64,000 bases of DNA, from positions 1-64,000 of the forward strand of contig JABCZI010000015.1 of assembly GCA_013289765.1 (NCBI GenBank), given 5' to 3'. The notes below the pieces were generated by a model. It searched no databases and had not been told where the DNA came from. It saw only the letters and a program-made list of their open reading frames with translations. Of the stretch, positions 7,977-19,477 are shown piece after piece; within the stretch, counting starts at the first letter, position 1, and each line of letters opens with the position of its first letter. The translations under genes and the position numbers were made by a program. Source of the DNA: Acidobacteriota bacterium. GTDB taxonomy: Bacteria; Acidobacteriota; Terriglobia; Terriglobales; Acidobacteriaceae.

Positions 7977-9320
7977 TTACGCTATACTGCGTGCTTTGAT
8001 GGGCGTGCTTATGTCGACGGCGGGTGCCGCTGCCCGGTTCGATTGCTCGATGGTGCGTGCTGCTACCGGCTTCAGCCAGAACAAAGCTAGAAGCGCCGCG
8101 ATCAGGTCGCACGCGATCATCGCCCAGAATACTTTCGTCCACGATCCGGTCTTCTCAAACAACCAGGCCGCTCCGACTCCGGCAAAAAGAGCGCCCATGC
8201 CCTTCGCCGTATAAACAATGCCGTAATTGGTTGTGGCCCACGTCCTTCCGAACAAGTCTCCCGTGATGGAAGGAAACAGCGAGAAGATTTCGCCCCAGGC
8301 AAAGAAACACAAGCCCGAGAGCGCGATGAACCACATGGGACGGCTGATCAGTTGCAACAGCGCGAACACCGCCACCGCTTCCAGCGTGAACGCGATGAAC
8401 ATGGTGTTTTCGCGACCGATGTGGTCCGACACCCATCCCCAAAAAGGCCGCGTCAGCCCGTTCAGGTAACGATCCACGGTGATCGCCATCACCAGAGCGG
8501 TCATGCCGAAAGCCACCACTACTTTATCGACATGATAGGAAACTGCCATGGGGTTGAGTTGTGCCGTCACCACCAGGCCGCCAAACGACAGCATGGTCAT
8601 CATCAGATAAATGATATAAAACGACGGTTGCCGCAGCATCTGCCACGGAGTCATGTCCACGCTCGAAGTGCGCACGTGCTGCTTGATCTTGGCTTCCTTC
8701 TCCGCCCAGTTAGGAGGAGTCCAGCCCGCCGGAGGACGGGCCAGGAAGAGCGCAGCGACGATGACCACGATGCCCTGGATAATTCCCCAAAAAATCAAAG
8801 TATGCTGATAGCCCGAGGTCTTGATCATGTCGGCAATGGGAGAAACCGTCAGCGCAGTTCCTATGCCATACGCGCCGGCGGTGAGTCCGACGCAGAGGCC
8901 GCGGTGGTCCGGAAACCATTTCAGCGCATTGCCGATGGTCCCGCCATATACAACTCCGGCGCCGACTCCGCCCACGCAATACCAGAAGTATAGGGCGCGC
9001 AGACTCTCGGCCTGACCTGAGAAAATCCAGCTGAGACCGACCAGGATGCCGCCCACGCCCAGCATCAGCCGTGGACCGATTCGATCGACCAGGTATCCTT
9101 CAAACGGAACCAGCCAGGTTTCGACGATGATGAACAAACTGAAAATTCCCTGGATCGCCGTAAGACTCACATGCAGGTGGGATTGCATCGGTTTGGTGAA
9201 CAGGGTCCAGGCGTACTGCAGGTTAGCGATCGCCATCATCGCAATGATGCCGGCGACTAACTGGGCCCAACGGTTAATAATGCGCGACGGGTGAATGAGA
9301 GGGGCGGCGGACGCGGCCAT
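7977..9320 (-). CDS. OFA-family MFS transporter, probable oxalate carrier
   Basis: The 447-residue protein has about 12 membrane helices and the MFS loop-2 motif DRIGPR. It resembles the oxalate/formate antiporter (OFA) family. OxlT of Oxalobacter uses one Arg on helix 8 and one Lys on helix 11 for the dianion. Corresponding residues appear here as Arg291 in NGLTRPFWGW and Lys373 in VYTAKGMG, almost the same distance apart. AGGAGG precedes the ATG at 9320. Its promoter carries the same palindrome as the oxidoreductase operon, so it probably imports oxalate, perhaps in exchange for formate or bicarbonate. Other dicarboxylates cannot be excluded. Confidence 0.85.
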   Translation of the reverse strand: MAASAAPLIHPSRIINRWAQLVAGIIAMMAIANLQYAWTLFTKPMQSHLHVSLTAIQGIFSLFIIVETWLVPFEGYLVDRIGPRLMLGVGGILVGLSWIFSGQAESLRALYFWYCVGGVGAGVVYGGTIGNALKWFPDHRGLCVGLTAGAYGIGTALTVSPIADMIKTSGYQHTLIFWGIIQGIVVIVAALFLARPPAGWTPPNWAEKEAKIKQHVRTSSVDMTPWQMLRQPSFYIIYLMMTMLSFGGLVVTAQLNPMAVSYHVDKVVVAFGMTALVMAITVDRYLNGLTRPFWGWVSDHIGRENTMFIAFTLEAVAVFALLQLISRPMWFIALSGLCFFAWGEIFSLFPSITGDLFGRTWATTNYGIVYTAKGMGALFAGVGAAWLFEKTGSWTKVFWAMIACDLIAALLALFWLKPVAARTIEQSNRAAAPAVDISTPIKARSIA

Positions 9321-9406
9321 GGTACACCTCCTGGGTGTCGTCAGACTCTATCGGCTCACAGTTAAGGAGCAGCCAGACCGCGTATTCATTGGTGGAAATG
9401 ATATAC

Positions 9407-9425
9407 TGGTCCGGTTATCGAACCA
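9407..9425 (-). promoter_or_regulatory. FadR-type operator of the oxalate carrier gene
   Basis: TGGTCC-GGTTATC-GAACCA is an inverted repeat with one mismatch. Aligned to the site at 19459-19477 read on the opposite strand, 16 of 19 bases agree, including TTATCG in the spacer. It lies 12 bp downstream of the -10 box, so binding should repress. GntR/FadR regulators typically bind TGGT-spacer-ACCA sites. Confidence 0.72.
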
Positions 9426-9547: not shown

Positions 9548-10336
9548 TTGGAAGAAAGCCTCCAAACTCAGATTGAGACCTACCTCTCTCACCTCGACGG
9601 CTTGATCCGTCGTGGCCATCAGCTACGGGATACGTTGGCAGCGAATCCTTCCGACGCAGCAGCCATCACCGCCACTCGCAAATGGCAGGAAGACTGCGGC
9701 GTCACCATCAATCAGCTATCGGGAGGGAGCAAGGCTCATTGGCTGGCGCGATCGTTCAGCGAAGCATTTCTTATGCGCTCAGCGGATGGCCGTGCTGCTC
9801 AAGGGGCCGCGCCGGCTGAGATTGTGCAACAATTGCTCGGCGTCTTAGCGCAGGCTGTAGTCTCGCTCTCGCAAAAAGATAAGGACGCCATTGTCTCTGC
9901 ATCGTCGACTCAGCCTGCGCCTCACCGCTTCGACTTCGTTCACAATCCTGAGATTCGTCCGGTTCTGGAGCAAGCCTATGCAGATAGCCGGAGTGCTCTG
10001 GAAAAAGGGGACTACGATTTCGCATTGATGACTGCCAGCGGAATATTAGAAGCCATCGTTACCGACGCGCTGGAACATGCTGGCGCGAATGCGCTGGCGG
10101 CGTCGGGCGCTCCAGCCGGAATGATTGCGGATTGGTCATTCGCGACACGGCTTTCAGTGGCAGAAAAGGCCGGACTGATGCGAAGCGGAGCAGCCCGTCT
10201 GCCTGCGGTAGGTCGAACCTATCGAGATCGAGCAGAAGGTGAAGTTAACTCGAATGGGAAAATTTCAGAGCGCGATGCGAAGACCACAGGACAGGTGCTT
10301 CACGTCATCATGCGGGATCTGGATCCGGGCCGGTAA
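9548..10336 (+). CDS. Hypothetical protein with possible HEPN/Abi_C-like C-terminus
   Basis: The 262-residue soluble protein starts with TTG after GAGGG. No family is recognised with confidence. The C-terminal half is helical. It contains ALEKGDYDFALMTASGILEA and later VGRTYRDRAEGEV, where abortive-infection C-terminal or HEPN-like domains carry an R-x4-6-H motif. The histidine is not present here, so nuclease activity is doubtful. It is divergent from the oxalate carrier and convergent with the end of the oxidoreductase operon, so no shared role can be deduced. Confidence 0.6.
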   Translation: MEESLQTQIETYLSHLDGLIRRGHQLRDTLAANPSDAAAITATRKWQEDCGVTINQLSGGSKAHWLARSFSEAFLMRSADGRAAQGAAPAEIVQQLLGVLAQAVVSLSQKDKDAIVSASSTQPAPHRFDFVHNPEIRPVLEQAYADSRSALEKGDYDFALMTASGILEAIVTDALEHAGANALAASGAPAGMIADWSFATRLSVAEKAGLMRSGAARLPAVGRTYRDRAEGEVNSNGKISERDAKTTGQVLHVIMRDLDPGR

Positions 10337-10372: not shown

Positions 10373-10696
10373 TTAATCTTCTAAATCCTGCCGGAATACT
10401 GGTTGCGAAGGATCGAGCGTGCCGTCGATGACGCTCACCAAAAGATTTTCGTACGCATTCGTCGCTTCCGTCAGAGAGGTGTAGCCGCGCTCCCGCTGTA
10501 ACGTCCCGCCGTCCGAGTATATGAGAGTGAAATAGCGACCGGAGGAATACTGAATTTCCAGCAGCTTGTCCGGCATATCAGGGTCGCCTTTTTGTCCCAG
10601 CACGTCCATCAACGCAACCGTCCACTGCCTGCCCTTGGGGTCAGTGATGACCTCATGCTCAAGGTATTCCCACTCGTCCATGCCCCACATTGACAT
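10373..10696 (-). CDS. Hypothetical 107-residue protein, last gene of the oxidoreductase operon
   Basis: A small acidic soluble protein beginning MSMWGMDEWEYLEHEV. No domain is recognised. The central part (VALMDVLGQKGDPDMPDKL, then IQYSSGRYFTLIYSDGG) looks like a compact alpha/beta fold. It starts 3 bp after the response regulator stop, so the two are almost surely co-translated. Being the ninth gene of the oxalate operon suggests an accessory or regulatory role, but nothing in the sequence shows it. Confidence 0.68.
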   Translation of the reverse strand: MSMWGMDEWEYLEHEVITDPKGRQWTVALMDVLGQKGDPDMPDKLLEIQYSSGRYFTLIYSDGGTLQRERGYTSLTEATNAYENLLVSVIDGTLDPSQPVFRQDLED

Positions 10697-10699
10697 AAT

Positions 10700-11062
10700 T
10701 TATTCAAGCAATTGCGCGAGTGCTCTACCGACCTGCGCGCCCGTAAACGGTTTCGGAACTATAAGAACTTTACGGGCCTTTCGCGACCGAAGGCTTGGCT
10801 CGGCCTGTTCGGGTGTATCGGTAATGATTACCACTGGAAGCTCCGCGTGATTGGGATGGCTTCGCACCGAATCAAAAAGTGCCTCGCTCATGTCGTAGGC
10901 GGAACAATCGAGCACGACCGCATCCGCTTTGTGCTCGAGCACGAGATCGTTGACGGCGTTCGTGTATCCCGACGCGAAGACCTGGTGGCCGAGGTCTCGC
11001 AGCGAGAAGGTTAGAAGCTCAGCGATCTCCGGCGTATCGTCGATCAGCAAGACGCGGGACAA
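10700..11062 (-). CDS. CheY-like single-domain response regulator
   Basis: The 120-residue protein is a receiver domain only. It has the acidic pair Asp8/Asp9 (LLIDDTPE), phospho-acceptor Asp52 (VVLDCSAYDM), Thr81 (VVIITDT) and Lys104 (VPKPF). All the residues needed for phosphorylation are present. There is no output domain and no histidine kinase nearby, so it must work by binding a partner. It starts 1 bp after the stop of the 132-residue protein and 3 bp before the 107-residue one, which places it in the oxidoreductase operon. A single receiver in a catabolic enzyme operon is unusual. Confidence 0.85.
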   Translation of the reverse strand: MSRVLLIDDTPEIAELLTFSLRDLGHQVFASGYTNAVNDLVLEHKADAVVLDCSAYDMSEALFDSVRSHPNHAELPVVIITDTPEQAEPSLRSRKARKVLIVPKPFTGAQVGRALAQLLE

Positions 11063-11063
11063 T

Positions 11064-11462
11064 CTACTTCTTGCCCGCGCCCGGGCCAGTGCCCGGCAGC
11101 CGCTTCTTCTTGCCTTCCGAAGGCTCCAGATCCATCATCCAGATTCGTCCACCGGCTGTGTAGTAAGCGCGGTGATCGTTTTCGATCATCGCGCCCCAGG
11201 CCTCCAGCGTGCGCATCGCGAAGGTAACGCCCTCGAAATTGTTGCGGGCATGGTTAAATACTTCATTGGTATGCCAGTTGTCGGTAAGGATGGCATCGCC
11301 CGCGTGGACGCGCAACACGGTGTAGTAGCGGTCGTAAGCCGCTTCTGTGCGCACGTCGCGCGTTGCGCCGCGCTTCTTGCCCTCTGTGACGATGTAACTT
11401 TCCTGTCCCTCAGGCTCGACCTCGGGCTCGTTTGGAGTTGTTGTAACAGGTTTCGTGCTCAT
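11064..11462 (-). CDS. Hypothetical protein translationally coupled to the oxidoreductase beta subunit
   Basis: The 132-residue protein has a charged, disordered N-terminus (Pro/Glu-rich up to about residue 20) and a basic tail, KKKRLPGTGPGAGKK. Between them is a conserved-looking core with RYYTVLRVHAGDAILTD and a long helix. No family is recognised. Its ATG overlaps the beta subunit stop in an ATGA arrangement (11459-11462), which normally reflects fixed stoichiometry. It could be an accessory subunit or an assembly factor; this is inference. Confidence 0.72.
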   Translation of the reverse strand: MSTKPVTTTPNEPEVEPEGQESYIVTEGKKRGATRDVRTEAAYDRYYTVLRVHAGDAILTDNWHTNEVFNHARNNFEGVTFAMRTLEAWGAMIENDHRAYYTAGGRIWMMDLEPSEGKKKRLPGTGPGAGKK

Positions 11463-12523
11463 AAAGTTTGCGCCACCGCTTCGGCTTCAGCTGCAGCCGC
11501 CATGTTCGTTAAATTTTTCGCATCCGCCGCATGGATCAAGGCCTGAGGAAGCTCAACGCCCATCATCTTCCATTGCTCATTGGCAAACTTCTGTAGATTG
11601 GCGATGTGCTCGGCATGGAGATGACCAAAGCGTCCCTGCAACTTGAGATATTCTGAAACGGGACGCATACTTGCTGGACGGAAGCTGTAATTGAATTCGC
11701 GCTTCTCGGGATTCCACTCCCACATCGGATACAGTCCGCATTCGACAACCAGCCGGCCCAGGTCGATGGAGCGTGGCGTCTCGTATACGAATCCCTTCTG
11801 ACAGGGCGTGTAAATCATCAGGTATGCGGCGCCTTTGTGGTTCAGGCCCTTGCGTACCTTGTTCATCAAGTCGATGGGATAGCCTACGCTCGCTGTTGCC
11901 ACATAGCAGTGGGGATGGCCAGCCGCCATCATGCGCGCGAGATCCTTGGGATAAAGCTTTTTGCCTTCCGGAACTTCCGGGCCCGGAGGCGAGAACGTAG
12001 TCATGCCGCCATAGGGTGTGCGCGATGAAGCCTGAATGCCGGTGTTGGCGTACTGCTCGTTGTCGTAGCAGATGATGAGGCAGTCGTGATTGCGGTAGAG
12101 CGCGCCGGAAATCGAGGCGAGACCGATGTCGGATGCGCTGCCGTCGCCCGCTTCGCAAATGATGTTCGGGAACTTGCCCTTCCACTTGCCTTTGCGAATC
12201 ATCGCCTCATAGGCGGCCGCGACGCCCGCGGTAAAACTCCCCGCGCTGCCGATCTGTGTGTGCGCCCACGGCACGTTGTAGGGCGTGCACAGATAAGAAC
12301 TGTTCGCGACGTACATGCAGCCGGTGGGACCGACCAGAATGGTGTTGTCGCCCGCCGCTTTGCTCGTCATCCGGTATTGAATGGACGGCCCGCAGCCCGC
12401 GCATGTGCGATGGCCGGGGACGAACGGTTCCGACGACGGCAGTTCCGGGTTGTAGAAACGTGCGCCCTGATTCGGGCTATCGAGAATCGGCAAGAGCTGC
12501 CGTTGGACTTCAATGGTCGCCAT
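11459..12523 (-). CDS. Oxalate oxidoreductase (2-oxoacid oxidoreductase) beta subunit
   Basis: The 354-residue protein is the thiamine-diphosphate-binding beta subunit of a 2-oxoacid:acceptor oxidoreductase. The diphosphate/Mg motif GDGSASDIG lies at 126-134, followed by CYDNEQYANTG. Four cysteines for the proximal [4Fe-4S] cluster are present: Cys41 and Cys44 (TCAGCG), Cys69 (PTGCM) and Cys241 (YTPCQKGF). It pairs with the alpha subunit encoded upstream (12614-13822) to form the active site. The substrate is inferred from the alpha subunit to be oxalate. The gene is 90 bp downstream of alpha, and its stop overlaps the next start. Confidence 0.9.
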   Translation of the reverse strand: MATIEVQRQLLPILDSPNQGARFYNPELPSSEPFVPGHRTCAGCGPSIQYRMTSKAAGDNTILVGPTGCMYVANSSYLCTPYNVPWAHTQIGSAGSFTAGVAAAYEAMIRKGKWKGKFPNIICEAGDGSASDIGLASISGALYRNHDCLIICYDNEQYANTGIQASSRTPYGGMTTFSPPGPEVPEGKKLYPKDLARMMAAGHPHCYVATASVGYPIDLMNKVRKGLNHKGAAYLMIYTPCQKGFVYETPRSIDLGRLVVECGLYPMWEWNPEKREFNYSFRPASMRPVSEYLKLQGRFGHLHAEHIANLQKFANEQWKMMGVELPQALIHAADAKNLTNMAAAAEAEAVAQTL

Positions 12524-12613: not shown

Positions 12614-13822
12614 TTACTCTTCGAATCCGACCCAATGCGTACGCTTTTCGATTTTGCCGCGGCGCTGCGCGTCCAGCATTTTTTCAGTCATCCAATAAAA
12701 CTCTTTCAGCACGATCGCCTCGCCACCCATGCCCGCCATGAATGAAAGAATTAGAGGACGCTTCTGGCTTTCGTAAAGAGCTGCGGCAGCTTCGGCGTAC
12801 AGTACGCCGCCACTACTCACGCTGCCGAGTCCCATGTTGGTTTCGATCACTCCGACCACTTTGAATTTGCTGAGTACGTCTTTCACCCGATCCGTTGGAT
12901 AAGGACGAATGGTTCTCAGCCGCACCATGCCGACTTTCAATCCGCGTTCGCGCATATGTTGGATGGCAAACCGCGCCGTTACCGCGTGCGCGCCTTGGAG
13001 GAAGAAGACCACCTCGGCGTCATCTGTCATGAACTCTTCGACCCATGGATCGTAGCGGCGGCCGAATATCTTGGCGAACTCCTCATGTGCCTGCTCAATC
13101 ACTTCCATCGATCCTTCCATAGCGCGTGCCCGCTCCAACTGCAGCGGCGGACCCTGTTCCGGCATGATCTGCGGGCCGTGCGACACGGGATGCCGCGGAT
13201 CGAGTGGATAAGGATGTTTATAGGGAGGCAGGAACTCCTTTACCTGTCCGGAGTCTGGCAATTCAACGTCGCCCGTAATATGTGAGACGAAGAACCCATC
13301 CTGACAAACCATCTGCGGCAAAAGAACCCGAGGGTCTTCGCCGATGCGATAGGCGATCAAATGATTGTCAAATGCTTCTTGAGCATCGCACGACCAACCC
13401 ATGATCCAACCCATGTCGCGCGTGGATAGCGCGTCCGTGTGTTCGGAGCCGAAATCGCCGGGAGGATCAAGCGTGCGATCGGCGATCATCATTTGAACCG
13501 GCATGCGGCTGCCCGAGATTGGCGAGTACAGTTCATACGCGAACTGCACGCCTACGCCGGAGCTACCGGTAAAGACGCGTGCGCCGCTGGAAGCCGCGCC
13601 GTGCGCGATACTCAGTTGAGAGTGCTCGCTGTCAGCCACAATGTACTCGGCGTCGAGTTCGCCGTTAGCCACCATTTGCGCCAGCGCCATCATGGTCGCT
13701 GTATAAGGGCGGATAGGATAAGCCGCAATTACATCGACATCTGCGTACTTTGCCGCCTGCGCCGACGCGACGCAACCGTTGATTCTGACTGTTCTCTTTT
13801 TTTGTTCTGCAAGCATTGGCAT
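12614..13822 (-). CDS. Oxalate oxidoreductase alpha subunit (YPIRP type)
   Basis: The 402-residue subunit has the pyrimidine-binding and C-terminal domains of 2-oxoacid oxidoreductases. The usual YPITP substrate loop is YPIRP here, with Arg38. Arg116 (MIADRT), Asp119 and Phe124 (DPPGDFGS) follow. In Moorella thermoacetica oxalate oxidoreductase, as I recall the structures, the oxalate-binding and switch-loop residues are Arg31, Arg109, Asp112 and Phe117. All four correspond here at a constant offset of seven. Pyruvate and 2-oxoglutarate enzymes have Thr in the loop. The reaction would be oxalate to 2 CO2 plus two low-potential electrons, without coenzyme A. Confidence 0.88.
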   Translation of the reverse strand: MPMLAEQKKRTVRINGCVASAQAAKYADVDVIAAYPIRPYTATMMALAQMVANGELDAEYIVADSEHSQLSIAHGAASSGARVFTGSSGVGVQFAYELYSPISGSRMPVQMMIADRTLDPPGDFGSEHTDALSTRDMGWIMGWSCDAQEAFDNHLIAYRIGEDPRVLLPQMVCQDGFFVSHITGDVELPDSGQVKEFLPPYKHPYPLDPRHPVSHGPQIMPEQGPPLQLERARAMEGSMEVIEQAHEEFAKIFGRRYDPWVEEFMTDDAEVVFFLQGAHAVTARFAIQHMRERGLKVGMVRLRTIRPYPTDRVKDVLSKFKVVGVIETNMGLGSVSSGGVLYAEAAAALYESQKRPLILSFMAGMGGEAIVLKEFYWMTEKMLDAQRRGKIEKRTHWVGFEE

Positions 13823-13929: not shown

Positions 13930-15762
13930 CTAAATATTCTTCGGCGCCCGGTCGCCCAGATTTTTCAACTCTTGCGCCTGCCGTCCGTGCAGTCCGGGCG
14001 AGATGGCGAAAGCCGTATCCATGCGCACGACTCCTGTATCGAAGTCGAGTTCCGGCACGCCCTCCAAGCATCCCGTTGGGCACTCTTCGATGCATACGCG
14101 GCATCCTTTGCAGTAGTCGACCAGAATCTTGTACATGCCGTTCGACCGCTCTGGACGCGCGATGCAGGGCTCGGGACAAACCAGATAACAGTTGTCGCAA
14201 GCGTTGCAGGTGCCGCAACTGAAGCAGCGATTAGCCTCTTCAACCGCTTGCTCTTCGGTGAAGGGCTGAATCACTTCGTCCTGTGTTTTCGTTCTGGTTT
14301 TGGTCGGCAGCATTTCCTGCTGGATACGCGGGAAGTGCGGGAAGTACGTCATATTCATGCGATTCAGATCGAAGATCACATCGACCGGGATGGTGCGCGG
14401 CTCTAGCTTTTCTCCACGCACCACTTTGTCGAGATTGAACGCAACGCGCTTGCCGTCGCCAACCGCATTGACGACCATGAGCGGCTGACCGGAACCGACC
14501 TGAGCGATATCGCCGGCGGCGAAAAAGTTGGTGTTTCCGAGGCGGCCGAACTTGTCCATCTTGATGGTGCCGCGCTCGTTTTTGAACTCGGCGGGCAGCC
14601 AGTTGAGGGACGCGTGTTGTCCCACGGCGATGATCACATTGTCGACTGCGAAGCGCTCGGAGGGAGCCTCGCGATCGACTGTGATCGGAGAAGCGTTAAT
14701 CGCTCCCTGAAAACGTGCCTTGTGCAGTTGCAAGGCTTCAACTTTTCCGTTGCCAAGTACGGCAGTCACCGCACGCCCGTGCATCAGCTCGACACCTTCT
14801 TCGAGCATGTCGTGCAAATCTTCCGGCGACGCAGGCATTTCATTCGCATTGCCCTCGACCGTAATCATGGTCACTTCTGCGGCACCCTGCCGCAGCGCTT
14901 CGCGCGCGCAATCGATGGCGGTGTTTCCTCCGCCAATCACGGCTACACGGGCGCCTAGCTTCACCTTCGAGGTTCCCATGCCGATGTCGCGCAAGAAGGG
15001 AAGTCCATACACCACGCCGTTCTTGTCCTCGCCTTCGGCTTTCACGCTGTTCGGTTCAGTAAGCCCTACCGCCAGCACGCATGCGTCATAGTCTTTCTTC
15101 AGGCTATCCCATGTAACATCTTTGCCGACTTCGACGCCGGTTTTGATCGTGATGCCAAGCTGTTCGAGGCGTTCGATTTCGCGATCAAGGACGTTCTGCG
15201 GGAGAACCCAGTCGGGAATACCACCGCGATTGAGTCCGCCAGCTTTCGGCGATTTTTCGAAGATCGTTACTTTGTAGCCGAGCCGCGCCAGTTGATATGC
15301 CGCGCTATGGCCCGCGGGACCAGAGCCAACCACCGCAACTTTCTTGCCGTTCGGCTTCCCGGGCTTGACCACGTCGTTAGTCAGCGCCTGTCCCAAATCA
15401 CCGAGAAAGCGCTCCACCGCGCGGATCGAAATAGCCTCATCATACTTGCCGCGATTGCAAGCCTGCTCGCACGGGTGGTAGCAGACGCGTCCCGTCACCG
15501 AGGGAAACGGCATGTCTTCTTTAATGAGCGCATAGGCGTCCAAATACTTGCCGCGCTTCACCAGGTCGAGGTAGCCCTGAATTTTTTCGTTGGTTCCGCA
15601 AGCGTTATTGCAAGGAGGCAACTTGTCCCGGTAAACGGGTCTGATCGAGCGCCAGTTGCCGGTAGGGAACAGGTCTTGCCCTTTTTCCTGTGAGGGGGCA
15701 GGCGTGATACCGGCGAAGGGAACGGTAAGCCATTCGGGAATATGAGTATTTTTAGTCGACAT
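13930..15762 (-). CDS. Oxidoreductase subunit: GltD-like flavoprotein fused to ferredoxin domain
   Basis: The 610-residue protein starts with the cysteine-rich helical domain of GltD-type proteins (CNNACGT near 51 and CYHPCEQACNRG near 93). A FAD motif VAVVGSGPAG and an NAD(P) motif VAVIGGGNTA follow. The C-terminus (513-565) carries two ferredoxin-type cysteine sets, CFSCGTCNACDNC and CKGCRVCIEECPTGC, equivalent to the delta subunit of 2-oxoacid oxidoreductases. The fusion would pass electrons from the thiamine site through clusters to FAD and then NAD(P)+. This makes the complex independent of free ferredoxin. The gene is 15 bp after gamma and 107 bp before alpha. Confidence 0.88.
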   Translation of the reverse strand: MSTKNTHIPEWLTVPFAGITPAPSQEKGQDLFPTGNWRSIRPVYRDKLPPCNNACGTNEKIQGYLDLVKRGKYLDAYALIKEDMPFPSVTGRVCYHPCEQACNRGKYDEAISIRAVERFLGDLGQALTNDVVKPGKPNGKKVAVVGSGPAGHSAAYQLARLGYKVTIFEKSPKAGGLNRGGIPDWVLPQNVLDREIERLEQLGITIKTGVEVGKDVTWDSLKKDYDACVLAVGLTEPNSVKAEGEDKNGVVYGLPFLRDIGMGTSKVKLGARVAVIGGGNTAIDCAREALRQGAAEVTMITVEGNANEMPASPEDLHDMLEEGVELMHGRAVTAVLGNGKVEALQLHKARFQGAINASPITVDREAPSERFAVDNVIIAVGQHASLNWLPAEFKNERGTIKMDKFGRLGNTNFFAAGDIAQVGSGQPLMVVNAVGDGKRVAFNLDKVVRGEKLEPRTIPVDVIFDLNRMNMTYFPHFPRIQQEMLPTKTRTKTQDEVIQPFTEEQAVEEANRCFSCGTCNACDNCYLVCPEPCIARPERSNGMYKILVDYCKGCRVCIEECPTGCLEGVPELDFDTGVVRMDTAFAISPGLHGRQAQELKNLGDRAPKNI

Positions 15763-15777
15763 TAAGTTAATCCTCTC

Positions 15778-16425
15778 CTACACCGCCACTGGATTCAGCG
15801 TCATAATGTGCAACTCGTTGAGCGCTACATCAAAAGCGTGCTTGTTCGCAATCATGGGCTCGATCGTTTTCATTTTGACGATGCCCGTGGTCTTGACGAC
15901 CGCGGCGATCAGCGGAGCGGCGATGTCGGGGGCGATGGATTTATTCCGCTCGGCAGCGCCTTCTGTTGATAGGCGGTCCAGACCAAGTTCGCCGAGCCGG
16001 TAATAAAGCCACTTGTGGTCGGCAATCTTCGCCGCATCCACGCAAACCAGTTGGGCCAGACGTTCGGCGCCAGGGACGAAGCGAATCATGTAATCCGGCG
16101 TGTAGTGCGTATTGATCACGAGTGTTCCGCCGGGAGGCATTCCGCGCATGTAATCCCAACCCTTGACCATCGTTCCCTCTACCAGTACGACGATGTTGGG
16201 ATGTTCATTTTCGTAGGTAAGCTCGTTTTCGAGCACATCATCGCTCACGCGGCAATATTTCCGCGTGGGGCAGTTCGTGCGGTCGGGATTATCGACGTAA
16301 TTTTCCATGGCCTGCGCGTATTTACCCTCGATGCGGGCCGAGGCGGAAATGGAGTTGACGATGTCGCGGCCCTCTTTATCCATAATAATGCCGCGCGTCC
16401 AAACGGTGAGCTCCGTATAAGCCAT
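15778..16425 (-). CDS. Oxalate oxidoreductase gamma subunit
   Basis: The 215-residue protein aligns with the gamma domain of 2-oxoacid oxidoreductases: VWTRGIIMDKEGRDIV, ASARIEGKYAQ, then VVLVEGTMVKGWDYM and a C-terminal helical part. The canonical GRGGQG loop near the N-terminus is replaced by WTRGII. In coenzyme A-using relatives this domain helps bind the cofactor, whereas oxalate oxidoreductase does not use coenzyme A, so the loss fits. A cluster-like CPTRKYC is present near residue 52. It lies 24 bp after the AAA ATPase gene and 15 bp before the flavoprotein gene. Confidence 0.82.
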   Translation of the reverse strand: MAYTELTVWTRGIIMDKEGRDIVNSISASARIEGKYAQAMENYVDNPDRTNCPTRKYCRVSDDVLENELTYENEHPNIVVLVEGTMVKGWDYMRGMPPGGTLVINTHYTPDYMIRFVPGAERLAQLVCVDAAKIADHKWLYYRLGELGLDRLSTEGAAERNKSIAPDIAAPLIAAVVKTTGIVKMKTIEPMIANKHAFDVALNELHIMTLNPVAV

Positions 16426-16449: not shown

Positions 16450-18738
16450 CTAGTTATCAGTCGATGCGTCGGAGCACAAATCTCCGGCGACGTCAGTCAA
16501 TGCATTCGCTCGTTTCAATTGCTTCGGACTGCCGCGATCGGAATCGAGCACTGCCAAAAAATCGTTCCGCAAAACTAATAACGGAGCTTGGCGAATTCCA
16601 TCCTGAAATTCCGCAACCGCGGACAGCGCCGCCTTCTTGCACAGGCTTTCAATGTCGGCGCCGGTAAATCCTTCAGTACGATTGGCGAAGTCCTCGAAAT
16701 CGACATCGGACGCCAACGGTACGCGTTGACAGCAAAGCCGCATGATGGCCGCGCGATCGGCGGCGCCGGGCTTAGCGAATGGAAGGATGTAGTCGAAGCG
16801 TCCACTTCGCAGCAACGCCGGTTCGATCCGCTCGGGACGATTGGTAGCCGCTAGCAGGATCACGCCTTTCACGTCGCGCAAGTTGTCAATCTCGCGCAGA
16901 AGTTGGCTGAGAATTCGTTGATAGATGTCGGTACCGAACTGATCGGCACCGAACCTCGGCGCGATCGCATCAATCGTGTCGAAGAACAGAATGCATGGAG
17001 CCGTTCTTCTCGCTTTCTTGAAAACCTCACGCAACGCTCGCTCGGATTCGCCCAACCACTTCGAGTAGAGTTGCGGACCATCAATAGCGATGAGCGGAAT
17101 TTGTTTTTCACCGGCCAGCGCTCGCGCCATGGCGGTCTTCCCGGTGCCCGAAGGTCCAGCCAGCAAGATCCCGCGCGGCGGTGTCAGCCCAACTTGCTCG
17201 TAAAGATCGTCGTGCACGTGCGAGTGCTCAACGACCATATCGAGCAACCGCTTCACTTCATTGAGACCGGCGAGCGATACGAAGGTCGAGCTGCTCTTTT
17301 CAATAAAGAATTCACGAGTCGCGCTCGGTTCAACTTCTTTCAAACCCGCGAGAAAGTCCTCTCGCGTAACTTGAAGCTTGTCCAGGTCAGCGGATGCCGC
17401 GCCGTCGGTTTCAAGGGGGAAGGCTGAAAGAAAACCGCGCAACGCAATCATTCCAACTTCCTGGCACAAGGCTTCAAGGTCCGCGCCGACGAAGCCATGC
17501 GAATGCTCGGCAATCTCGCGAAGGTCGACGTCACGCGCCAACGGCATGGCGCGCGTATGAATCCTCAATATCTGCAATCGTGCCTGGCTATTCGGAACAC
17601 CGATTTCGATTTCGCGATCGAACCGGCCGGGACGCCGCAGCGCCGGATCAAGAACTTCCGGGATATTGGTCGCGCCAATGACGATAACCTGGCCGCGCGC
17701 GACAAAACCATCCATCAAGCTGAGAAGCTGTGCCACGACACGCTTTTCGACTTCGCCCGTTACCTCGGCCCGCTTGGGAGCCACGGCGTCGATCTCGTCG
17801 ATAAAGAGGATGGCGGGCGCGTGCCGCGCCGCTTCCTCGAACACTTCGCGAAGTTTGGCCTCGCTCTCGCCGTAAAACTTTCGCATAATTTCGGGGCCGT
17901 TCAGGTGAATAAAGTGCACGCGGCTCTCGGCCGCGACGGCGCGGGCCAGCAGAGTCTTGCCCGTGCCCGGTGGGCCATACAACAGCACGCCCTTGGGCGC
18001 GAGAATTCCCAAGCGCTCGAAGATTCGCGAATATTTCAGAGGCAGTTCGACGATTTCACGCACCCTCGCAACTTCCCGTTCCAAACCGCCGATATCTTCG
18101 TAAGATACGGAGGGCGCGCGAGCGGCAGTCTGCTCGCCTTCCACCACGCGAATGTCAGTGCGCTTCCCAATCACGACGGCTCCCGAGGGAATCGTGCGCA
18201 CGACCTGGAAGTTCACCGCCTTCGCGAATGTCGGTACACGCACTACGCAGCCGGTCGTAACTGGAACGCCGATGAGATCCTCGAGCATCCGGTCGGGTGC
18301 AATAGTCGCGGGAGCAGCGCCGATCCACAATGGCGCGAAACGAACTGCCACAGCCTCCTGGCGCTCGATGGTGGCAACGGTAACCTGCTCTTGTAAGCCC
18401 GCGCCACAGTTGCTCCGGCACGTGCCATCGATCTGGATCATGCCTTCATGTCCATCATCCGAAAGTTCGGCGCGGCCAACAGCGATTGTGCTCCCCGTAA
18501 TTTTGACCACATCACCCGTGTGAGCGCCGAGCCGCCGCAGGTCAGCGGGTGCAAGGCGTGCGATCGCATGCCCAACATCCTCGACCCGCGCTTCCGCAAC
18601 GCGCAGAGTCAGAGTTGCCGTTTGCGATGAGGAAGTTTCCGTCATGATCTGAGTTGCAAACCGCTCCTGGCCGGCTACCCCTTCGAAGGGCGTCACCTTC
18701 TGCTGCTCCATATGAACCGGCTCATTAATAAGCGTCAC
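16450..18738 (-). CDS. CDC48/VAT-like double AAA+ ATPase
   Basis: The 762-residue protein has a CDC48 N-domain (about 40-205, with MIQIDGTCRSNCGAG) and two AAA+ modules. D1 is complete: Walker A GPPGTGKT 255-262, Walker B LFIDEID with Glu315, and RRPGRFDRE. D2 has Walker A GPSGTGKT 528-535, but its Walker B reads LFFDTID, with Thr588 replacing the catalytic glutamate. D2 should therefore bind but hardly hydrolyse ATP. The GTG start is 3 bp after the FadR-like stop, so translation is coupled. A segregase or remodelling role for the oxidoreductase is inferred from its place in the operon only. Confidence 0.88.
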   Translation of the reverse strand: MTLINEPVHMEQQKVTPFEGVAGQERFATQIMTETSSSQTATLTLRVAEARVEDVGHAIARLAPADLRRLGAHTGDVVKITGSTIAVGRAELSDDGHEGMIQIDGTCRSNCGAGLQEQVTVATIERQEAVAVRFAPLWIGAAPATIAPDRMLEDLIGVPVTTGCVVRVPTFAKAVNFQVVRTIPSGAVVIGKRTDIRVVEGEQTAARAPSVSYEDIGGLEREVARVREIVELPLKYSRIFERLGILAPKGVLLYGPPGTGKTLLARAVAAESRVHFIHLNGPEIMRKFYGESEAKLREVFEEAARHAPAILFIDEIDAVAPKRAEVTGEVEKRVVAQLLSLMDGFVARGQVIVIGATNIPEVLDPALRRPGRFDREIEIGVPNSQARLQILRIHTRAMPLARDVDLREIAEHSHGFVGADLEALCQEVGMIALRGFLSAFPLETDGAASADLDKLQVTREDFLAGLKEVEPSATREFFIEKSSSTFVSLAGLNEVKRLLDMVVEHSHVHDDLYEQVGLTPPRGILLAGPSGTGKTAMARALAGEKQIPLIAIDGPQLYSKWLGESERALREVFKKARRTAPCILFFDTIDAIAPRFGADQFGTDIYQRILSQLLREIDNLRDVKGVILLAATNRPERIEPALLRSGRFDYILPFAKPGAADRAAIMRLCCQRVPLASDVDFEDFANRTEGFTGADIESLCKKAALSAVAEFQDGIRQAPLLVLRNDFLAVLDSDRGSPKQLKRANALTDVAGDLCSDASTDN

Positions 18739-18741
18739 CTG

Positions 18742-19449
18742 TCAAAACTTGTTCAGTACGATTTCTTCCACATCCTCAAGGTGGCGGCGCATCGCGTTCT
18801 TGGCGGCCTCCGCATCGTGACGCTTGATGGCAGCCAGAATCCGCCGATGCCCGGTGAGCGATTTCTGCGGCCGTCCCTCTACCTGCAAAGAACGCGCTCG
18901 CGTGTCGCGCAGCAAATCCATCAGAACGTCGATCACTTTAAGCACCACGCTGTTATCGGAGGCCAAGGCAACGCTGTAATGGAACTCCGAATCCTCAGCG
19001 ACAGCGGCGTCTCCCTGACGCTGCCTCTCTTCTTGCCGCCGCAGAATGTCCTCCATCTCGATAAGTTCCTCGGGAGAAGCGTGGGTAGCAGCGCGCGCGG
19101 CTAGCGGCGGTTCGAGCATCTTGCGAAAATCCAGAAGTTCGCCGACTAACTCCTTGCGCCGCTTCAGCGCGTTCGCAAATGGATTGGCCAACGTTTCAGT
19201 TGACGTTTGGCGGACGATTGTCCCAGTTCCCTGCCGCGCTTCCACAAGACCCAACAATTCGAGGCTCCGAATCGCATCCCGAATGGAGCCGCGGCTCACC
19301 CGAAGCATTTCGGCCAAGTCGCGTTCCGAAGGCAGCTTGTCACCCGGTTGAAGCTTCTTTAAAATCAGGCGTTCGATTTGTTTGGCGACCTCTTCGTAGA
19401 GGCGATTCCGCCGCACAACCTCGAATTCGGGTTTGGTTGCAGTTGTCAT
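18742..19449 (-). CDS. FadR-family (GntR/FCD) transcriptional regulator of the oxalate operon
   Basis: The 235-residue protein has an N-terminal winged helix-turn-helix (LPSERDLAEMLRVSRGSIRD, roughly 39-70). The C-terminal FCD domain has the metal-ligand type positions EFHYSVALASDN and LTGHRRILAAI, then RRHLEDVEE. FCD sensors bind small carboxylates. The frame is open to 19614, but the family start is the ATG at 19449. The gene heads its own operon, and a TGGTCC-N7-GGACCA palindrome lies 10 bp upstream. A matching site controls the oxalate carrier gene. Oxalate or a derivative as inducer is inference. Confidence 0.86.
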   Translation of the reverse strand: MTTATKPEFEVVRRNRLYEEVAKQIERLILKKLQPGDKLPSERDLAEMLRVSRGSIRDAIRSLELLGLVEARQGTGTIVRQTSTETLANPFANALKRRKELVGELLDFRKMLEPPLAARAATHASPEELIEMEDILRRQEERQRQGDAAVAEDSEFHYSVALASDNSVVLKVIDVLMDLLRDTRARSLQVEGRPQKSLTGHRRILAAIKRHDAEAAKNAMRRHLEDVEEIVLNKF

Positions 19450-19458
19450 TTCCGCCAG

Positions 19459-19477
19459 TGGTCCGATAAGTGGACCA
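19459..19477 (-). promoter_or_regulatory. FadR-type operator of the oxalate oxidoreductase operon
   Basis: TGGTCC-GATAAGT-GGACCA is a perfect 6-bp inverted repeat with a 7-bp spacer, 12 bp downstream of the -10 box and just before the regulator start codon. It matches the site at 9407-9425 at 16 of 19 bases and has the same placement, which suggests autorepression and a shared regulon. Confidence 0.75.

Follow-up and report, generated by a model that had tools for sequence, protein, structure and literature searches.

LldR, GlcC, PdhR, DgoR and NanR are regulators that combine a GntR wHTH with an FCD domain, and carboxylate regulators of the FadR subfamily often serve their own promoter together with that of a transporter. 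Plants and fungi commonly produce oxalate. Its CoA-independent oxidation to CO2 is the activity of oxalate oxidoreductase (OOR), an enzyme that is best known from the acetogen Moorella. Among literature titles and abstract openings, nothing was found on how oxalate oxidoreductase is regulated or on oxalate in Ca. Sulfotelmatobacter, which is no proof of absence, and the enzyme is not mentioned in the available part of PMC10192776. In some GntR-family sites a further half-site stands 7-12 nt off the centre, as described in the available sections of Suvorova et al. 2015 (PMC4494728). In parallel, the (GGTATA)3 operator of NanR was found to bind three dimers (PMC8012715, available part). On the ligand side, an Arg, an Asp and three His hold metal and carboxylate in related regulators (accessible sections of PMC4746285 and PMC7674646), and FadR is devoid of metal ligands, with Phe and Tyr as the counterparts of Asp/His (PMC7674646, same sections).

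The window, that is, the whole stretch of DNA that was analysed, comprises 64,000 nucleotides of an Acidobacteriota bacterium (GCA_013289765.1, contig JABCZI010000015.1). It contains two 19-bp palindromic sites, one in front of an oxalate/formate antiporter gene and the other in front of the regulator gene that opens an OOR operon (Table 1). From the observed sites, their conservation, exclusivity and promoter position and the observed gene content, we infer that both sites are in all likelihood operators of one local autoregulated FCD repressor (the 18742-19449 product), which would bind them, repress transcription and be released by a small carboxylate, most likely oxalate. The sequence-only reading had proposed a FadR-type oxalate regulon, and this proposal is supported by an antiporter above the TIGR04259 cut-off, an OOR alpha above that of NF045791 and exact copies of the site that, in the genus, precede only the regulator and the antiporter. 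Such an oxalate regulon is new but of a known regulon type, and its operator is a variant. It places OOR in a conserved locus, apparently under regulation, of acidobacteria that are for the most part uncultured. Through the regulator/operator pair, the signal to which the whole cluster responds could be tested in vitro, with no need for a culture.

The regulator has the domain pair of LldR, GlcC, PdhR, DgoR and NanR, and its metal-site residues are as in LldR and DgoR. Unlike in these systems, the regulon here consists of OOR and the oxalate/formate antiporter, and the first half of the core reads TTAT instead of TKGT. The TGGT/ACCA half-site alphabet is common to the FadR subfamily and the present sites, and the distance between the outer TGGT and the proposed core centre, about 11.5 nt, is like that of the extra half-site of Suvorova et al. 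(PMC4494728, available sections). However, that extra box is weaker in their sites (same sections), whereas here it is nearly invariant and the inner half is off-consensus. Like NanR, the proposed arrangement involves an FCD repressor, more than two half-sites and one domain of a dimer on a non-consensus half, but the half-sites are direct repeats in NanR while they are inverted and partly overlapping here (PMC8012715, available part). In addition, just 16 residues precede the GntR domain of the present regulator, too few for an extension like the 32-residue one of NanR.

Table 1. Features of the putative oxalate locus (coordinates in the window).
Feature	Position	Strand	Remarks
Oxalate/formate MFS antiporter (OxlT type)	7977..9320	-	TIGR04259 488.8 bits, above the cut-off of 335
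Putative -10 TATACT facing the 262-aa gene	9402..9407	+	shares one base with operator 1 (end of the hexamer, start of the operator); TANACT there in 23/23 loci
Operator 1	9407..9425	-	motif orientation (TGGTCC...ACCA) on + strand; TGGTTCGATAACCGGACCA in antiporter sense
Proposed core of operator 1, TTAT-CGA-ACCA, FadR spacing	9415..9425	+ (motif orientation)	core also found in two regulator classes that are more distant
262-aa protein without known function, divergent from antiporter	9548..10336	+	homologue in 36/48 OOR-alpha loci and in 23/23 antiporter loci counted
Three small genes: 132-aa unknown, response-regulator receiver domain, 107-aa unknown	10373..11462	-	
OOR beta	11459..12523	-	NF045792 445.3 bits, below the cut-off of 590; 5c4i_C E 2.7e-116
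OOR alpha	12614..13822	-	NF045791 589.3 bits, above the cut-off of 500; 5c4i_A E 2.4e-154
GltD-like flavoprotein fused to PorD-type ferredoxin domain	13930..15762	-	domain and family profile searches
OOR gamma-type (POR) subunit, matches part of OOR delta	15778..16425	-	NF045790 175.6 bits, below the cut-off of 230
CDC48-family AAA ATPase, second operon gene	16450..18738	-	CDC48_N and 2 AAA domains; TIGR01243 776.6 bits, under the cut-off of 802.65
GntR/FCD (FadR-subfamily) regulator, proposed repressor	18742..19449	-	PF00392 and PF07729
Proposed core of operator 2, TTAT-CGG-ACCA	19459..19469	-	core also found in two regulator classes that are more distant
Operator 2	19459..19477	-	TGGTCCACTTATCGGACCA; regulator start codon 9 bp further on

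On the + strand, the two sites read TGGTCCGGTTATCGAACCA at 9407-9425 and TGGTCCGATAAGTGGACCA at 19459-19477, and re-reading of the sequence placed both 19-mers exactly where the sequence-only reading had put them. That reading had also announced an agreement of 16 of 19 bases on the same strand. The figure stands once one of the sites is reverse-complemented but not on the same window strand, where 13/19 bases agree (hand count); it is in the reverse-complemented alignment that both sites have the announced TTATCG spacer core in common. A plausible -10 box does lie 12 bp ahead of each site when read by eye, the layout being TATACT, 12 nt and site for the regulator promoter and TTGACA, 17 nt, TACATT, 12 nt and site for the antiporter promoter. 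Since antiporter and regulator genes are both on the minus strand, the sites are oppositely directed relative to transcription, and the inversion of one versus the other implies an element that is functional in either orientation.

The arms only (TGGTYC-N7-GRACCA) are not specific, since at one mismatch or fewer they were found at 50 places in the genome against 42 for a reversed-pattern control. With the spacer included, the pattern TGGTCCRNTNAYCGRACCA at the same tolerance was found in the window at just these two places (shuffle mean 0.01; 3 matches reached in 0/100 shuffles). The genome-wide scan that had been suggested as a check gave again just these two places in 4.8 Mb. At 3 mismatches, the genome contains no excess of matches (24 + 31 versus 27 + 36 for the control). 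As the consensus was partly drawn from the two sites themselves, the relatives provide the independent tests. The other two perfect pairs of arms in the genome, which differ in the spacer, were set aside as chance occurrences, one preceding what we read as a secreted-type ORF (C15:96698) and the other inside an ORF (C3:382271). A place with 2 mismatches (C2:220035) lies inside a long ORF that in our reading resembles valyl-tRNA synthetase.

The comparative set consisted of 48 loci with an OOR alpha gene taken from named genome records, of which 46 are titled Acidobacteria or subgroups (Ca. Sulfotelmatobacter among them), 1 Paradesulfitobacterium and 1 Myxococcales; nearly all named relatives are metagenome-assembled. 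The OOR alpha of one locus (L046) is 99% identical to that of the window, which suggests Ca. Sulfotelmatobacter as the genus of the window, and the gene order is largely preserved among the OOR loci compared. Using a site call of at most 2 mismatches to TGGTYC-N7-GRACCA within 520 bp, the site was found ahead of 36/36 distinct regulator upstream regions (regulators of at least 68% identity) and of 23/23 antiporter orthologues (at least 50% identity), although the orthologues are mutually related and 36 and 23 are thus not independent counts. For the antiporters, a first count had given 21/23, the sites of L061 and L090 lying further upstream and being reached by the 520-bp search. These counts cover loci L001-L108 and the window, with duplicate upstream sequences, matches below 60% of the query and the L071 regulator, whose upstream DNA is off the contig, being dropped. 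Within the site, the information per base amounts to 1.71 bits for regulators and 1.59 for antiporters, versus 0.37-0.60 in the flanks.

Exclusivity was observed at the level of the genus. Across the 41 genus genomes scanned, TGGTCCRNTNAYYRRACCA had 30 matches free of mismatches, spread over 21 genomes, against 1 for the reversed control, and all 30 precede the regulator (18) or the antiporter (12). The motif is thus not scattered at random, and random scatter is what the sequence-only reading had named as contrary to its proposal. In the 37 genomes present in both regulator and motif scans, the 18 with a regulator of at least 70% identity are the 18 with an exact site, a co-occurrence that is to some extent a given, as the regulator has a site of its own next to its gene. 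OOR alpha was present in 15/41 genus genomes and, at E 1e-100, was not found in 6 of the 21 genomes with an exact site (G006, G008, G026, G030, G033, G061). Across 199 genomes of the phylum, OOR alpha was found in 6 at E 1e-100, 3 of them above the family cut-off.

Some antiporters do not have their own site, namely those of 42-48% identity in L075, L077, L081 and L088 and those of L144-L147 (63-86% identity, outside the 23/23 count), which stand behind another oxidoreductase pair. In L144-L147, regulator and site lead to this 42-43% identical pair and then to the antiporter; the pair may represent a second type of oxalate (or glyoxylate) oxidoreductase. In Paradesulfitobacterium (L085), a 27%-identical FCD regulator precedes CDC48, POR-gamma, OOR alpha, OOR beta and an ORF that looks MFS-like by eye, and no such site was found upstream of this regulator.

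Comparison of the 59 sites in motif orientation revealed that ACCA at positions 16-19 is invariant, T9 being retained in 59/59 and A11 in 58/59. The outer TGGT deviates in 4 regulator sites, all from C10-type loci (L094, L097, L099, L100; C10 carries a second regulator of the same genome), and it is retained in the C10-type loci L098 and L149. More distantly, a regulator of 38-44% identity that is divergent from the CDC48/OOR genes has a related site before it in 12/12 loci, all fitting TGGYCCRGTGRTYGAACCA at 3 mismatches or fewer, a pattern drawn from these same sites. TGGT-N3-ACCA, the textbook FadR-subfamily site, is found within 8 of these 12. A third regulator class (50-61% identity) has TCRT-N3-ACCA in 8/10 promoters, 14-22 bp before the start, the core being absent from L102 and L108. 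An outer TGGT was seen by eye in three of the 8 (L101, L107 and the second regulator of L052), one base closer.

The element that persists across the three classes is T-N-R-T-N3-ACCA with FadR spacing, and the outer half moves or decays. The core is therefore read as the primary site. When the sites are held against the subfamily pattern TKGT-N3-ACMA, in which GT and AC are 3 nt apart, the ACCA half is there in 59/59 and the inner half-site, TTAT in the window, departs from the TKGT consensus in the window's clade. As judged from these alignments, the primary operator is probably the FadR-spaced core T-N-R-T-N3-ACCA within the palindrome, the outer TGGT acting as an auxiliary half-site. The three operator classes suggest how a FadR-type site can swap which of its half-sites is conserved.

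The second site was said to precede the gene of a FadR-family regulator, and the product indeed contains GntR and FCD domains (PF00392 66.2 bits, PF07729 104.7 bits, both above cut-off), its start lying 9 bp on. It belongs to the FadR subfamily, yet it is not FadR, as it scores 35.7 bits for NF003444 (cut-off 189) and 29.9 for TIGR02812 (cut-off 249.2). In the same way, it is below the NCBIfam cut-offs for NanR (145.6/260 bits), PdhR (119.6/330), LldR (117.4/311) and also GlcC. In 37 aligned sequences, R109, H157, H201 and H223 are invariant and D153 is kept in at least 90%, which gives a putative metal site of the FCD class with three His and an Asp/Asn lining the ligand cavity. These residues match those of LldR, TM0439 and DgoR in the accessible sections of PMC4746285 and PMC7674646. 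Arg43, Ser55 and Gly74 are also retained and correspond in our own mapping to positions 28, 40 and 59, which are linked to G/C in the half-site (PMC4494728, available sections). The AlphaFold2 model (mean pLDDT 84.2, pTM 0.65) had GntR-family or partly so annotated proteins as its best 50 Foldseek matches, including NanR, DhdR and FadR, with TM-scores of about 0.4-0.6. As a bidentate metal ligand, oxalate suits the FCD site and is most likely the effector; glyoxylate is possible as well given the C10 cluster.

The proposed mechanism is as follows. The regulator dimer would bind the FadR-spaced core, helped by the outer TGGT half-site, and would cover the transcription start of its own operon (regulator, CDC48 ATPase, OOR and accessory genes) as well as that of the antiporter and the divergent 262-aa gene. 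The FCD dimer on the site would thus block the regulator, antiporter and divergent 262-aa promoters. A small carboxylate, most likely oxalate, held by the FCD metal site, would release the regulator, so that oxalate uptake and oxidation would be switched on together. The distance from a -10-like hexamer to the site is 4-13 bp in 36/36 regulator promoters and 11-16 bp in 22/23 antiporter promoters, none being recognised in the remaining one. Operator 1 probably serves a divergent promoter pair, that of the antiporter and the 262-aa gene, which points away from the antiporter in 23/23 of the loci counted.

Several other explanations bear on these observations. The likeness of two unrelated palindromes by chance could draw on the abundance of the arms alone in the genome, but with the spacer the exact copies are exclusive to regulator and antiporter promoters in 41 genomes; coincidence, which had been called unlikely beforehand, is hardly credible now that arms plus spacer are specific in the window, the genome and the relatives. 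Alternatively, the palindromes might be RNA hairpins in 5' leaders that control translation or transcript stability, as both lie in predicted leaders, operator 2 just ahead of the start codon, and six stem pairs (GU allowed) are all intact in the antiporter sense at 19/23 sites. Nevertheless, all six pairs are intact in only 17/36 regulator-leader sites, two would-be loop positions are near invariant, the orientations at the two promoters are opposite and the distance to the start codon ranges from 7 to about 360 bp, all of which makes a hairpin very improbable. Activation by the regulator through the site as an activator element has a precedent in the FCD protein CitO, which responds to citrate (PMC4746285, accessible sections). 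However, the position of the sites, past the -10 of either promoter and bordering the divergent -10, is the one expected of a repressor, and activation is therefore improbable, if less so than a hairpin.

More weight goes to two further readings, although both are unlikely. The sites could be bound mainly by a different FCD regulator such as the C10 paralogue, or be common to both, since this paralogue is 81% identical to the window's regulator and is preceded, 12 bp ahead of its aligned start, by a nearly identical site, so that cross-binding is likely. On the contrary, in loci such as L153, L148, L058 and L061 a single regulator, itself preceded by the same site, stands where the two clusters meet, and the four TGGT-deviant sites are all of the C10 type. 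With regard to the operator, position 12 is a T in just 45/59 sites, which leaves some room for a symmetric reading with two overlapping dimers. Tentatively, two overlapping FadR-type sites with centres 8 bp apart might share the central T-N-A and be bound cooperatively by two FCD dimers, the weight having shifted from the inner to the outer half-site, and one duplicated regulator might couple a dissimilatory branch (oxalate oxidoreductase) with an assimilatory one (oxalate-CoA ligase, malate synthase). The local autoregulated repressor is the reading that is retained here.

Regarding the enzyme, alpha and beta align with the Moorella oxalate oxidoreductase 5c4i over nearly their full length, YPIRPY and IADRTLDPPGDFG being kept. 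Arg31 and Arg109 of 5c4i alpha, which presumably bind oxalate, are kept as Arg38 and Arg116 (counted in the alignment). The delta subunit of 5c4i is divided here between two proteins, one of the POR-gamma type and one in which the ferredoxin domain is joined to a GltD-like flavoprotein. With alpha above its family cut-off and both beta and the split delta under theirs, oxalate is the putative substrate of the oxidoreductase. The fusion of the ferredoxin part of delta with a GltD-like protein suggests that oxalate electrons pass to pyridine nucleotide. The three small genes after OOR beta are retained in most loci, two being without family and one coding for a lone receiver domain. A CDC48-type AAA ATPase within the oxalate operon was also observed in Paradesulfitobacterium (L085), and CDC48 was not found in loci L058, L061, L066, L068 and L070.

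The 262-aa protein has no Pfam or NCBIfam match, and a fold search returned nothing significant (best E 0.53, with weak HEPN-domain matches lower down). It is modelled as all-helical with a pLDDT of 78.6. Its gene either stands divergent to the antiporter or immediately follows the regulator, the Myxococcales contig L086 being among the loci that have it, and some of its absences in the 48-locus count are due to cut contigs. The PntA gene (19796), divergent from the regulator, was set aside as a candidate for co-regulation, since it was seen next to the regulator in no locus but the window and the closest relative of the window (L046, L017, L141). At the start of the window, ORF 100-1167 resembles an IS110-type transposase.

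The cluster of the C10 regulator in the same genome has a third genomic site with 2 mismatches. It contains a 2-dehydropantoate-reductase-type gene above a subfamily cut-off and an AMP-forming ligase. Among solved structures, this ligase comes closest to oxalate-CoA ligases (6qjz 2.8e-126 and 5ie0 1.5e-123, versus 1.4e-67 for malonyl-CoA synthetase). An aminotransferase nearest to BhcA and a malate-synthase-A-like protein, both below cut-off, were also found, and no site was seen before the malate-synthase-like gene in the second-cluster loci examined. Such a second oxalate/glyoxylate cluster was also observed in L094 (9082-15430), with oxalate-CoA-ligase-like, reductase, aminotransferase and malate-synthase-like genes and a paralogous regulator with its own site. 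In L153 the clusters are joined as malate synthase, aminotransferase, ligase, reductase, site, regulator, CDC48 and OOR gamma, the contig ending nearby; L148 is alike, with malate synthase absent from the stretch, and L058 is without CDC48. This joining in several relatives suggests that the arrangement in the window is split and that the regulator was duplicated.

Finally, a 37-40% identical FCD paralogue was observed across the genus (L035-L045 and L156). The element upstream of it is another one, listed as CGGTATAGTA...CGGACCA in 10/11 of the loci L035-L045. In L156, this paralogue is ahead of ORFs that look dehydrogenase-E1-like by eye.
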